From Methyloceanibacter caenitepidi (GTDB lineage Bacteria; Pseudomonadota; Alphaproteobacteria; Rhizobiales; Methyloligellaceae), in NCBI RefSeq assembly GCF_000828475.1, contig NZ_AP014648.1:2305400-2369399 (forward strand): 64,000 bases of DNA, in the 5' to 3' direction. Shown piece after piece: positions 23,256-25,820 of this stretch (positions within the stretch are counted from its first letter, which is position 1; each line of letters begins with the position of its first letter). The notes below the pieces were generated by a model that saw only the letters and a program-made list of their open reading frames with translations, searched no databases and was not told the origin of the DNA. A program made the position numbers and the translations under genes.

Positions 23256-23475
23256 GTGGCCCTCCCCGTGACGGCAGATGATACCGCTTAGGCGCGCGCG
23301 GCCAAGCATGCGCTTCATCTTGTCCGCGCTGAGTAGAGCTGAATTCACGCCAGCGTGAGGCAAGTCACAACGCTTTGAAGAGGTGTGACGCATCGGATTC
23401 GGGAATTGGGTCTACCGTCCTCTCATGGCGTTCGGCGTCAGAAATTGGGAACACCCACACACTAGGAGAGTATCG

Positions 23476-23733
23476 ATGAAGATGAACCAGAAGTCCGGCA
23501 CCAAGATTGCCCTTACGGCCGCTGCGCTTATCGTGTCCGGCACGCTGGCCACATCCGCCCTCGCCGCGGGCGGCGAAACCGGAAAGTGCTTCGGCGTGAA
23601 TGCCTGCAAGGGCCAGAGCGCCTGTAAGACCGCTTCGAACGCTTGCAAGGGCCACAACGCCTGCAAGGGCAAAGGCTTCGTCGTCACGACGGATACCGAG
23701 TGCGCCGAAAAGGGCGGCGAATTCAAGAGCTAG
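23476..23733 (+). CDS. bufA2: Bufferin-type Cys-rich secreted peptide precursor 1 (BufA2-like)
   Basis: Predicted ribosomally made, modified metal-binding peptide of 85 residues. A signal peptide ([10 protein letters not shown] then a hydrophobic run ending ALAAG) is followed by the cysteine core [18 protein letters not shown] and [14 protein letters not shown], then a final cysteine in [10 protein letters not shown]. Spacing is C-x5-C-x5-C-x6-C-x5-C-x12-C. Bufferins are exported peptides whose cysteines are altered by a DUF692 (MNIO) enzyme, generally to thiooxazoles, and which bind copper; that enzyme and its DUF2063 partner follow here. AGGAG precedes the ATG at 23476; an in-frame ATG at 23425 would put 17 unlikely residues before the signal peptide. 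A near-copy follows 48 bp downstream. Confidence 0.85.
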
Positions 23734-23781
23734 CGCTCGCGAGCAGACATCCCACCAGTAGACACTCATAGGAGCGTGGAT

Positions 23782-24033
23782 ATGAAACTCAACGCGAAAG
23801 CCGGCGCCACGATCGCCGCGACTGCCGCCGCACTGCTCGTCTCCGGCACACTTGTCACCGCGGCCGTCGCCGGCGAGCAGGGCAAGTGCTTCGGCGTCAA
23901 CGCCTGCAAGGGCAAGAGCGCCTGCAAGACCGCTGCGAACGCGTGCAAGGGCCATAATGCCTGCAAGGGACAAGGCTTCCTTGTGATGTCCGAGAAGAAG
24001 TGCGCCCGTAAGGGTGGCAGCTTCCAGGGCTAA
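23782..24033 (+). CDS. bufA2: Bufferin-type Cys-rich secreted peptide precursor 2 (BufA2-like)
   Basis: Second precursor, 83 residues, with a signal peptide ending TAAVAGE and the same cysteine frame as its neighbour: [32 protein letters not shown] and a last cysteine in KKCARKGGSF. Spacing is again x5, x5, x6, x5, x12. Differences lie mainly in the signal peptide and the stretch between the fifth and sixth cysteine (FLVMSEKK against FVVTTDTE), where this copy is basic and the other acidic. AGGAG lies 7 bp before ATG 23782. The pair looks like a tandem duplication that keeps the modified core and varies the charge of the tail. Confidence 0.85.
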   Translation: MKLNAKAGATIAATAAALLVSGTLVTAAVAGEQGKCFGVNACKGKSACKTAANACKGHNACKGQGFLVMSEKKCARKGGSFQG

Positions 24034-24047
24034 GGCCCGAGAAACAG

Positions 24048-24075
24048 GAAGCCGGTCGCGTTTGCGGCCGGCTTC
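24048..24075 (+). terminator. Strong hairpin between precursor and enzyme genes of the bufferin operon
   Basis: A 12-bp stem (24048-24059 with 24064-24075, one G-T wobble) has a 4-nt GTTT loop. It is followed by GCCTCTTCCC, pyrimidine-rich but without a T-run. It sits 14 bp after the second precursor stop and 41 bp before the enzyme gene. It probably acts as a leaky terminator or transcript stabiliser that gives more precursor than enzyme. Confidence 0.6.
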
Positions 24076-24116
24076 GCCTCTTCCCATATAACTTTTGGTG
24101 CTTCGCGCTTTTGGAG

Positions 24117-24977
24117 ATGGAATTGGCCGACCACAAACCACCCTATCTCGGCTTCGGCCTCGGGTTGCGTCCCGAGCACTACAACGAGATTCTGTCCGGC
24201 ACTCCCCATGTCGACTGGTTCGAGGTGATCTCCGAAAATTACATGATCCCCGGCGGAAAGCCGCTGCGGGTCCTGGACCAGATTCGCGAGCGCTATCCGG
24301 TCGTGATGCACGGCGTATCGCTGTCGATTGCTTCCACCGCGCCGCTCGACATGGAGTATCTGACGGAACTCAAAACGCTCGCCGACCGCGTCGAGCCGAA
24401 ATGGATTTCCGATCATCTGTGCTGGACCGGCGTGCATGGGGTCAACCTGCACGACCTCCTGCCGATTCCCTATACGCAGGAAGCCCTCGGTCATGTGGTC
24501 GATCGCGTTAGCCGGGTGCAAGACTTTTTGGGCCGCCGCCTTACACTGGAGAACGTCTCGAGCTACGTGACTTTCGCACAGTCCGAGATGAGCGAATGGG
24601 AGTTCGTGAGTGAGGTGGCCCGCCGGGCCGATTGTTGGCTGCTCTTCGACGTCAACAATGTCTATGTCAGCGCCTGCAATCACGGCTTCTCGACGCGCGA
24701 CTTCCTGCACGGCGTGCCGCGCGACCGCGTGGTGCAATTCCATCTCGCCGGCCATAGCCATGAAGGCGATCACATCGTGGACACGCACGACCATCCCGTC
24801 TGCGACGAAGTCTGGGACTTCTACCGCGAGACGGTCTCGCATTTCGGTCCGGTGTCGACCATGATCGAGCGGGACGACAACATTCCTCCCTTGGCGGAGG
24901 TGATTGCCGAACTCGACATCGCACGCAAGATCGCTCAGGAGGTCGCCGAGGCCAAAAAGGTGATCGCCGCGGAATGA
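24117..24977 (+). CDS. bufB: DUF692 multinuclear non-haem iron enzyme (MNIO), bufferin-modifying BufB-like
   Basis: TIM-barrel-type enzyme of the DUF692/MNIO family, 286 residues, predicted to modify cysteines of the two upstream precursors in the cytoplasm before export. It opens PPYLGFGLGLRPEHYNEIL, characteristic of the family. Likely iron ligands and neighbours are His in VVMHGVSLSI, Asp-His in WISDHLCW, Glu in LTLENVSSYV, Asp/Asn in FDVNNVYVSACNHG, His in FHLAGHSH, DTHDHP, and Glu in IERDDNIPP. Start is uncertain among ATG 24117, TTG 24111 and TTG 24123, because GGAG abuts the ATG. The DUF2063 partner follows after 24 bp. Confidence 0.9.
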   Translation: MELADHKPPYLGFGLGLRPEHYNEILSGTPHVDWFEVISENYMIPGGKPLRVLDQIRERYPVVMHGVSLSIASTAPLDMEYLTELKTLADRVEPKWISDHLCWTGVHGVNLHDLLPIPYTQEALGHVVDRVSRVQDFLGRRLTLENVSSYVTFAQSEMSEWEFVSEVARRADCWLLFDVNNVYVSACNHGFSTRDFLHGVPRDRVVQFHLAGHSHEGDHIVDTHDHPVCDEVWDFYRETVSHFGPVSTMIERDDNIPPLAEVIAELDIARKIAQEVAEAKKVIAAE

Positions 24978-25001
24978 CGGCATTTAGGTGACGGCATTGC
25001 C

Positions 25002-25820
25002 ATGACCAGTCTCAAAGATCTGCAAGCGCGCTTCCAGGCCGGCATTGTGGACGGCGACAACACAGCCCTGAACGATATCAACGACAGCGCGACCGAAGAT
25101 CGAAGCACGCTCTTCGGCGTCTATCGTAATGCCTACGGACTGCGGCTCGCCGAGATCCTCGGCAAAGACTACGAACTGACCCACACCTATCTCGGCGACG
25201 AAGCATTTTCGTGCCTCGCGCGGGCCTATATCGCCGCCCACCCGTCGGACAAGCGCAATGCGCGCTGGTTCGGCCGACACCTGCCCACGTTCGCGCGGCA
25301 GACGGCGCCCTTCTCGGAGCACAAGGAAGTCGGGGAGCTCGCCGCGCTCGAAAAGGCTCTCGCCGACGCCTTCGATGGTCCCGACGCTGCACCGGTCTCC
25401 ACCGAGGAACTGGCCGCGATCCCGCCCGAGGAGTGGGCGGAACTGGTCTTCACGCCCCACCCGACCGCGCAGCGGCTTCGCTTCAAGACGAATGCTGGCG
25501 CTATCTGGATGGCGCTCGACGGCGACGACACGCCGCCAGCGCCGGTGCAACTCGCCGAGCCTCAGAACATCCTCGTCTGGCGGCAGGATCTCAGTGCCCG
25601 TTTCCGGCCGCTGAGTGCCGAAGAGGCCATGATGTGGGCCGAGGCCACGAGAGGCGTGCGGTTTGGCGTTCTGTGCGAGATGGTCGCGACCTTCGCCGGA
25701 CCCGACGAGGCCGAATTGCGCGCGGCGACCTATCTCAAGACCTGGCTCGACACAGGCGCGCTAGCATGTGTCAGCCCCGACTGTCCTCAGTCGGATCTGG
25801 TGCTGGGAACAGCGCATTAG
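25002..25820 (+). CDS. bufC: DUF2063 (HvfC/BufC-like) partner protein of the MNIO enzyme
   Basis: A protein of 272 residues with the DUF2063 N-terminal domain: LKDLQARFQAGIVDG, then FGVYRNAYGLRLAEIL and LTHTYLGDEAFSCLARAYI. DUF2063 proteins partner MNIO enzymes and are thought to present the precursor peptide to them. The C-terminal half (from about residue 150) has a RFKTNAGAIWMAL and ILVWRQDLSARFRPLSAEEA pattern found in the same family. Last gene of the operon. A DoxX-type membrane gene, often next in such operons, is absent; instead the 3' end overlaps the convergent ydcF-like gene by 50 bp. Confidence 0.88.
   Translation: MTSLKDLQARFQAGIVDGDNTALNDINDSATEDRSTLFGVYRNAYGLRLAEILGKDYELTHTYLGDEAFSCLARAYIAAHPSDKRNARWFGRHLPTFARQTAPFSEHKEVGELAALEKALADAFDGPDAAPVSTEELAAIPPEEWAELVFTPHPTAQRLRFKTNAGAIWMALDGDDTPPAPVQLAEPQNILVWRQDLSARFRPLSAEEAMMWAEATRGVRFGVLCEMVATFAGPDEAELRAATYLKTWLDTGALACVSPDCPQSDLVLGTAH

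Follow-up and report, generated by a model that had tools for sequence, protein, structure and literature searches.

The described gene systems that come closest to the locus analyzed here all pair an MNIO enzyme with a DUF2063-type partner protein. For Buf2 operons (Buf_6/12Cys), which have the gene order bufA-bufB-bufC, the available text of PMC12452194 gives precursor cysteine numbers of 6 and 12, describes both tandem precursor genes and precursors situated away from MNIO genes, and lists in its Table 3 as many as four Buf_6-12Cys genes in one genome. Buf1 operons encode an exported cysteine-rich precursor of the DUF2282 family with four cysteines, of which the central ones are modified and the outer two are joined in a disulfide (PMC12452194, Fig. 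3 legend); in the clusters treated in that text, sigma-factor and NrsF genes accompany Buf1 and not Buf2. The precursors of the oxazolin and fontiphorin systems (EGKCG, Lys-Cys captophorins; HvfABC, FonABC) consist of Lys-Cys repeats, and FonBC failed to process a NACKG motif, as stated in section 13 of PMC13097082. Here, we analyze an operon at positions 23476 to 25820 of a window of 64,000 nucleotides (nt) from Methyloceanibacter caenitepidi (contig NZ_AP014648.1, 2,305,400 to 2,369,399, forward strand) which, judged by its profile matches, is an ordinary Buf2-type (BufA2) bufferin operon of a Methyloceanibacter, with two precursor genes rather than one. Its least expected feature, and the one that is new here, is a hairpin between precursor and maturase genes that recurs in related operons. 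The terms hairpin, terminator and stem-loop are absent from the main text of PMC12452194, and no paper on a bufferin hairpin was among the matches listed.

The four open reading frames (ORFs), bufA2a-bufA2b-bufB-bufC, all lie on the plus strand and follow the Buf2 order. The first-pass annotation of this DNA had read two adjacent six-cysteine precursors with the pattern C-x5-C-x5-C-x6-C-x5-C-x12-C, ahead of a DUF692 (MNIO) enzyme and a DUF2063 protein, as a bufferin-type operon with tandem precursors, and the reading frames and profile searches confirm this. The products of bufA2a (23476-23733, 85 amino acids) and bufA2b (23782-24033, 83 amino acids) score 87.2 and 86.1 bits against the BufA2 model NF050166; because both exceed its curated cut-off of 60, the similarity is not due to chance. 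The cysteine spacing of 5-5-6-5-12 is exact in both, and both N-termini look signal-like by eye, with a basic start, a hydrophobic stretch and an Ala-x-Ala-like site. The MNIO (PF05114) maturase encoded by bufB (24117-24977) reaches 389.4 bits with the BufB model NF050167 (cut-off 310) and 384 bits with PF05114, and misses the cut-off of the HvfB model PRK05409 (283 bits versus 360), so that it does not fall outside the bufferin clade. The bufC gene (25002-25820) encodes a DUF2063 plus RRE-type partner of PME type 1 (PF09836, 62.4 bits, cut-off 27.2).

As in Buf2 operons, the precursors belong to the BufA2 family, have six cysteines and begin with a signal-like stretch, and they are followed by genes for a BufB maturase and a DUF2063-RRE partner in the same order; the locus differs in having two precursors upstream of one hairpin and a third, stand-alone bufA2 gene in the genome. 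Buf1 resembles it in the MNIO enzyme, the DUF2063 partner and the exported cysteine-rich precursor, but has a different precursor and a short bufA1-bufB gap, with a strong stem in one of the six gaps examined. From the oxazolin and fontiphorin systems it is separated by its maturase, which lies below the HvfB cut-off, and by its precursors, which are of the Cys-Lys rather than the Lys-Cys type; EGKCG repeats are found in neither of the two.

A recurrent hairpin between bufA2 and bufB

The hairpin (24048-24075, plus strand) begins at the 15th nucleotide after bufA2b and consists of a perfect 12-base-pair (bp) stem with a 4-nt loop, without a T-tract. The 34-nt stretch that contains it folds at -25.1 kcal/mol (z -5.2). 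Its recurrence was assessed in 83 bufA2-bufB gaps drawn from 94 loci (the window and L039-L138 minus seven duplicates), after setting aside L125, L128 and L131, in which no MNIO start motif was recognized, and eight loci without an MNIO gene or a same-strand upstream precursor. A perfect stem of at least 8 bp with a loop of 3-9 nt is present in 66 of the 83 gaps, compared with 26/83 control stretches upstream of the first precursor, 17/79 after bufC and 23/83 inside bufB; with a shuffling p ≤ 0.01, the count is 57 of 83 in the gaps and 3, 2 and 1, respectively, in the controls. When the gap is restricted to its first 70 nt, the stem occurs in 63/83 gaps versus 16/82 other co-directional gaps at the same loci, the genes flanking the latter having been called crudely, by ORF length (Fisher 1.9e-13). 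The 66 stems have 60 distinct left arms, at loci that are non-independent inasmuch as several genera recur.

A held-out set of 36 bufA2 genes was defined as those without an exact match in the stop region to the first set; relatives of the first set, including Bradyrhizobium, remain among the 36. Within 70 nt after the stop codon, 26 of these genes have the stem, whereas within 70 nt before the start codon only one does. These controlled stem-length tests and the held-out set are to be trusted over a scan for the best stretch of each gap, which lacks a positional control and gave 83/83 gaps below -15 kcal/mol and 79/83 with z below -2. Gaps between tandem precursors contain a stem at p ≤ 0.01 in 10 of 17 cases, mostly from Bradyrhizobium; no such stem is present between bufA2a and bufA2b in the window. 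In the same family, a stem of at least 8 bp occurs in one of six bufA1-bufB gaps (a seventh locus, L030, was not parsed).

Tandem and stand-alone precursors

The two window precursors are identical at 59 of 83 aligned residues, and their genes differ at 14 of 33 comparable fourfold sites, figures that disfavor a recent duplication of bufA2a. The ratio of nonsynonymous to synonymous substitution rates (dN/dS) between them is 0.063 for the Cys1-Cys5 stretch and 0.53 after Cys5, values that are rough because the stretches are short; they suggest that the core of bufA2b has been strongly constrained and that its tail has diverged more freely. In a tree of 98 rows, the closest relative of bufA2a is that of genome G008 (99% identity), whereas bufA2b has no close relative, its best identity being 70%, to bufA2a; the tree, with few alignment columns and an unsettled bootstrap, does not place it. 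An alignment of the four relatives nearest by bufA2a (G008, G018, G005 and G007) shows that bufA2b is absent from all of them and that the hairpin follows bufA2a directly.

The first-pass annotation had set an acidic segment between the last two cysteines of one precursor (TTDTE) against a basic one in the other (MSEKK), and had taken this as a sign that the two products differ in metal or partner. The contrast is overstated, as the whole Cys5-Cys6 segments have net charges of 0 and +2. The further argument is without support, because family members have charges between -2 and +5 in this segment, single-precursor operons included; in the tandem pairs of Bradyrhizobium, moreover, the two members are 1 or 2 charges apart, without an acidic/basic split.

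Tandem precursors are already known and are not special to this operon. Two precursors precede the enzyme gene in 17 of 80 related loci; at the family level, two lie within 1 kb of each other in three of the 19 genomes with matches above the cut-off (30 searched), and at the order level in six of 45 (397 searched, a sample of a larger group). In the tree, Bradyrhizobium first precursors group apart from second precursors, in two supported clades, and in G013 and G017 the first precursor is placed outside the genus group; tandem pairs have therefore probably arisen several times. The tandem precursors of two Methylotenera loci likewise fall into position-specific clades.

The present genome is the only one among those 45 of the order with three bufA2 genes above the cut-off. 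The third, bufA2c (C1:2673496-2673720; L009:4976-5233), stands alone, has the same cysteine spacing as the other two and has, downstream, an inverted repeat (arms of 13 bp) that was scored as stem-less under the loop limit of 9 nt; the gene is not part of the held-out set. Only two MNIO genes are present in the genome, neither of them within the 10.5 kb around bufA2c. A bufA1 (DUF2282)-MNIO-DUF2063-like operon at about C1:3152000 (L003:5555-7520, minus strand of that locus) accounts for the sole DUF2282 match, which is thus not in the operon studied here.

Other arrangements and cysteine numbers were seen among the related loci. In L101 and L137, BufA2-type precursors are on the strand opposite the enzyme genes and not upstream of them, and in L114 (7164-9087) a second MNIO gene with a weak DUF2063-like match lies about 0.6 kb after the first pair. 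BufA2-like precursors with 7, 10, 8 and 12 cysteines are encoded in L106, L108, L118 and L123, and the intermediate numbers suggest growth by C-x5/6 units. Cysteines have been lost from two Bradyrhizobium precursors: in L082 (4089-4373) the first copy retains four, and the precursor of L070 (4321-4812) lacks Cys4; these are possibly decaying copies.

Maturase, partner and surroundings of the operon

Sequence homologs of BufB with solved structures are 3bww, TglH (8hci) and MbnB (7dz9, 7tcr, 7fc0). Residues H65, D99, H100, E145, N146, D178, H209, D222, H224 and E251 are at least 98% conserved among 91 MNIO rows, in which the window is counted twice, and presumably have a role in iron binding. 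The start of bufB is probably TTG 24123 instead of ATG 24117, as a GGAG sits 6 nt ahead of the TTG and, of five aligned genomes, four have TTG and the fifth has GTG at this position; ATG 24117 is lost in G005 and G007. For BufC, a sequence search of the PDB with E-values up to 1 returned no match. Its AlphaFold2 model, with a predicted local distance difference test score of 90.8, matches best in Foldseek to TglI (8hi7_A, template modeling (TM) score 0.62), a member of the TglHI complex, and to NGO1945 (3dee, TM 0.55), both by query length; weaker matches include the RRE proteins TbiB1 and ThcOx.

The operon is flanked by one divergent and one convergent gene, which from sequence likeness we take to encode a universal-stress-type and a YdcF-like protein, respectively. 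Upstream of bufA2a, a block on the plus strand (23345-23395) contains two GTGA/TCAC dyads, TCACGCCAGCGTGA (23345-23358) and GTCACA-N14-TGTGAC, and is conserved in G008, G018, G005 and G007; the part AGGTGTGAC is also found upstream of bufA2 in G015, G016 and G017. The dyad with GTCAC following within 12 nt occurs once in the whole genome. We regard the block as a candidate operator/promoter region for the operon, one that the divergent universal-stress-type gene may share. Scans for sigma-70 promoters and terminators gave nothing useful.

The first-pass annotation had also remarked that the operon lacks a DoxX-type gene. The absence is real, all four DoxX matches of the genome lying elsewhere, but it is no peculiarity, since DoxX is likewise missing near bufA2 in all 12 Methyloceanibacter relatives, where matches lie on a different contig, as does a further weak match in G013, or at a distance of over 200 kb; several of these genomes are drafts, and DoxX was judged on the bufA2-bearing contig only. 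A DoxX gene is frequent but not obligatory in Buf2 operons. The Pfam searches for DoxX covered 16 of the G-numbered genomes and 44 named loci, with 29 of the 80 related loci outside every such search. Other genomes of the family (G002, G022, G028 and G029) have a DoxX match about 2 kb from a bufA1 hit, and some Bradyrhizobium loci have a DoxX-like ORF upstream of bufA2. In three Legionella loci (L091, L092 and L095), a membrane protein, presumably cytochrome b561-like by its sequence, is encoded downstream of bufC on the same strand; it was the only protein that passed a strict hydrophobicity filter in this position among the 83 loci with room for one.

Proposed precursor dosage and transcript balance

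If the modification chemistry of Buf1 and related peptides applies here, a single BufB/BufC pair would most likely modify both exported precursors. The residues expected to be modified are Cys2 to Cys5, each with a Lys directly after it, on the model of Buf1 and of the Cys-Lys peptides grouped in PMC13097082; these central cysteines would be oxidized to copper-binding thiooxazoles, Cys1 and Cys6 would form a disulfide, and the modified peptides would bind excess periplasmic copper. The identity of the operon, together with the maturation of both precursors by one enzyme pair, is in our judgment highly probable. The proteins of a related EGKCG cluster went undetected under copper according to the available text of PMC12538549, which counsels caution in assuming copper induction. 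As an additional precursor copy, bufA2b would raise peptide dosage, which appears likelier than a second metal specificity because the core of the protein is constrained and its tail has drifted.

The hairpin, in turn, would let the precursor transcript accumulate over the bufBC part, via protection of the 3' end or partial termination, and the latter is doubtful because a T-rich tail follows just 24 of the 66 stems and is missing in the window. A metal binder required in stoichiometric amounts and an enzyme acting catalytically would need unequal transcript levels from their shared promoter, and a weak TTG start of bufB would push in the same direction; the apparent TTG or GTG maturase start in the five aligned genomes and the single stem among six bufA1-bufB gaps also fit such a decoupling, and prove nothing. 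That the hairpin has this role in precursor accumulation is a serious possibility, a little short of probable. We put forward just as tentatively the wider reading that BufA2 genes across the family carry a 3' hairpin, kept as a stem and free in sequence, which would separate an abundant precursor transcript from a scarce maturase transcript, and that all three BufA2 peptides of this genome, including one encoded in trans, would depend on a single BufB/BufC pair, the second precursor having been gained upstream of the hairpin for dosage. Several observations weigh against these proposals. The whole 86-nt gap of the window has a moderate folding advantage over shuffled sequence (z -2.1, with 6 of 200 shuffles as good), 17/83 gaps and 10/36 held-out genes are stem-less by the criterion used, and the scarcity of T-rich tails has already been mentioned. 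In an alignment of six Methyloceanibacter hairpins, pair-by-pair covariation is weak, with one two-sided change and no excess over shuffles. The position-specific clades of Bradyrhizobium, a different genus, agree more with a long-maintained difference in function than with dosage alone.

The hairpin could instead be a general intergenic feature or a remnant terminator, without effect on the precursor:enzyme ratio. This would agree with the missing T-tract, in the window as in 42 of the 66 loci, and with the occurrence of stems where no maturase gene follows: of four held-out bufA2 genes without an MNIO gene in the stretch, those of L166 and L179 have a stem and those of L157 and L178 do not, and the stand-alone bufA2c has its long inverted repeat. 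A stem at a stand-alone bufA2 can only mark or protect the transcript end. Such an explanation nevertheless appears doubtful in view of the lower frequency of stems in other co-directional gaps and in the bufA1-bufB gaps of the family, and of the many different left arms with which the stem occurs. Alternatively, bufA2b could be a copy in the course of being lost, redundant or not a substrate, with no role of its own. Its absence from the four aligned relatives, its lack of a close relative in the tree and the existence elsewhere of precursors that have lost cysteines are all in line with this, but the six cysteines and their spacing are intact in bufA2b and the Cys1-Cys5 core has a low dN/dS despite the 14 changed fourfold sites, which makes the loss scenario unlikely.

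We regard as quite unlikely, for this operon, that the enzyme pair yields two products of distinct function whose metals or partners are selected by tail charge (TTDTE versus MSEKK). The faster evolution of the tail relative to the core would be consistent with it, and the clades that follow gene position across species, in Bradyrhizobium and the two Methylotenera loci, are what separate roles predict. However, the window pair differs by two charges within the broad range covered by the family, the Bradyrhizobium pairs have no corresponding split, and the window pair is itself not conserved, bufA2b being missing in every one of the aligned relatives. The Bradyrhizobium pairs, kept as two clades, offer a better test of one enzyme pair yielding two products than does the present window. 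The bufferins are a large class of copper-binding peptides described only recently, to which the operon adds one member; the hairpin, if functional, would explain how a bulk peptide and its enzyme can be produced from one operon, and represents a simple element to test.

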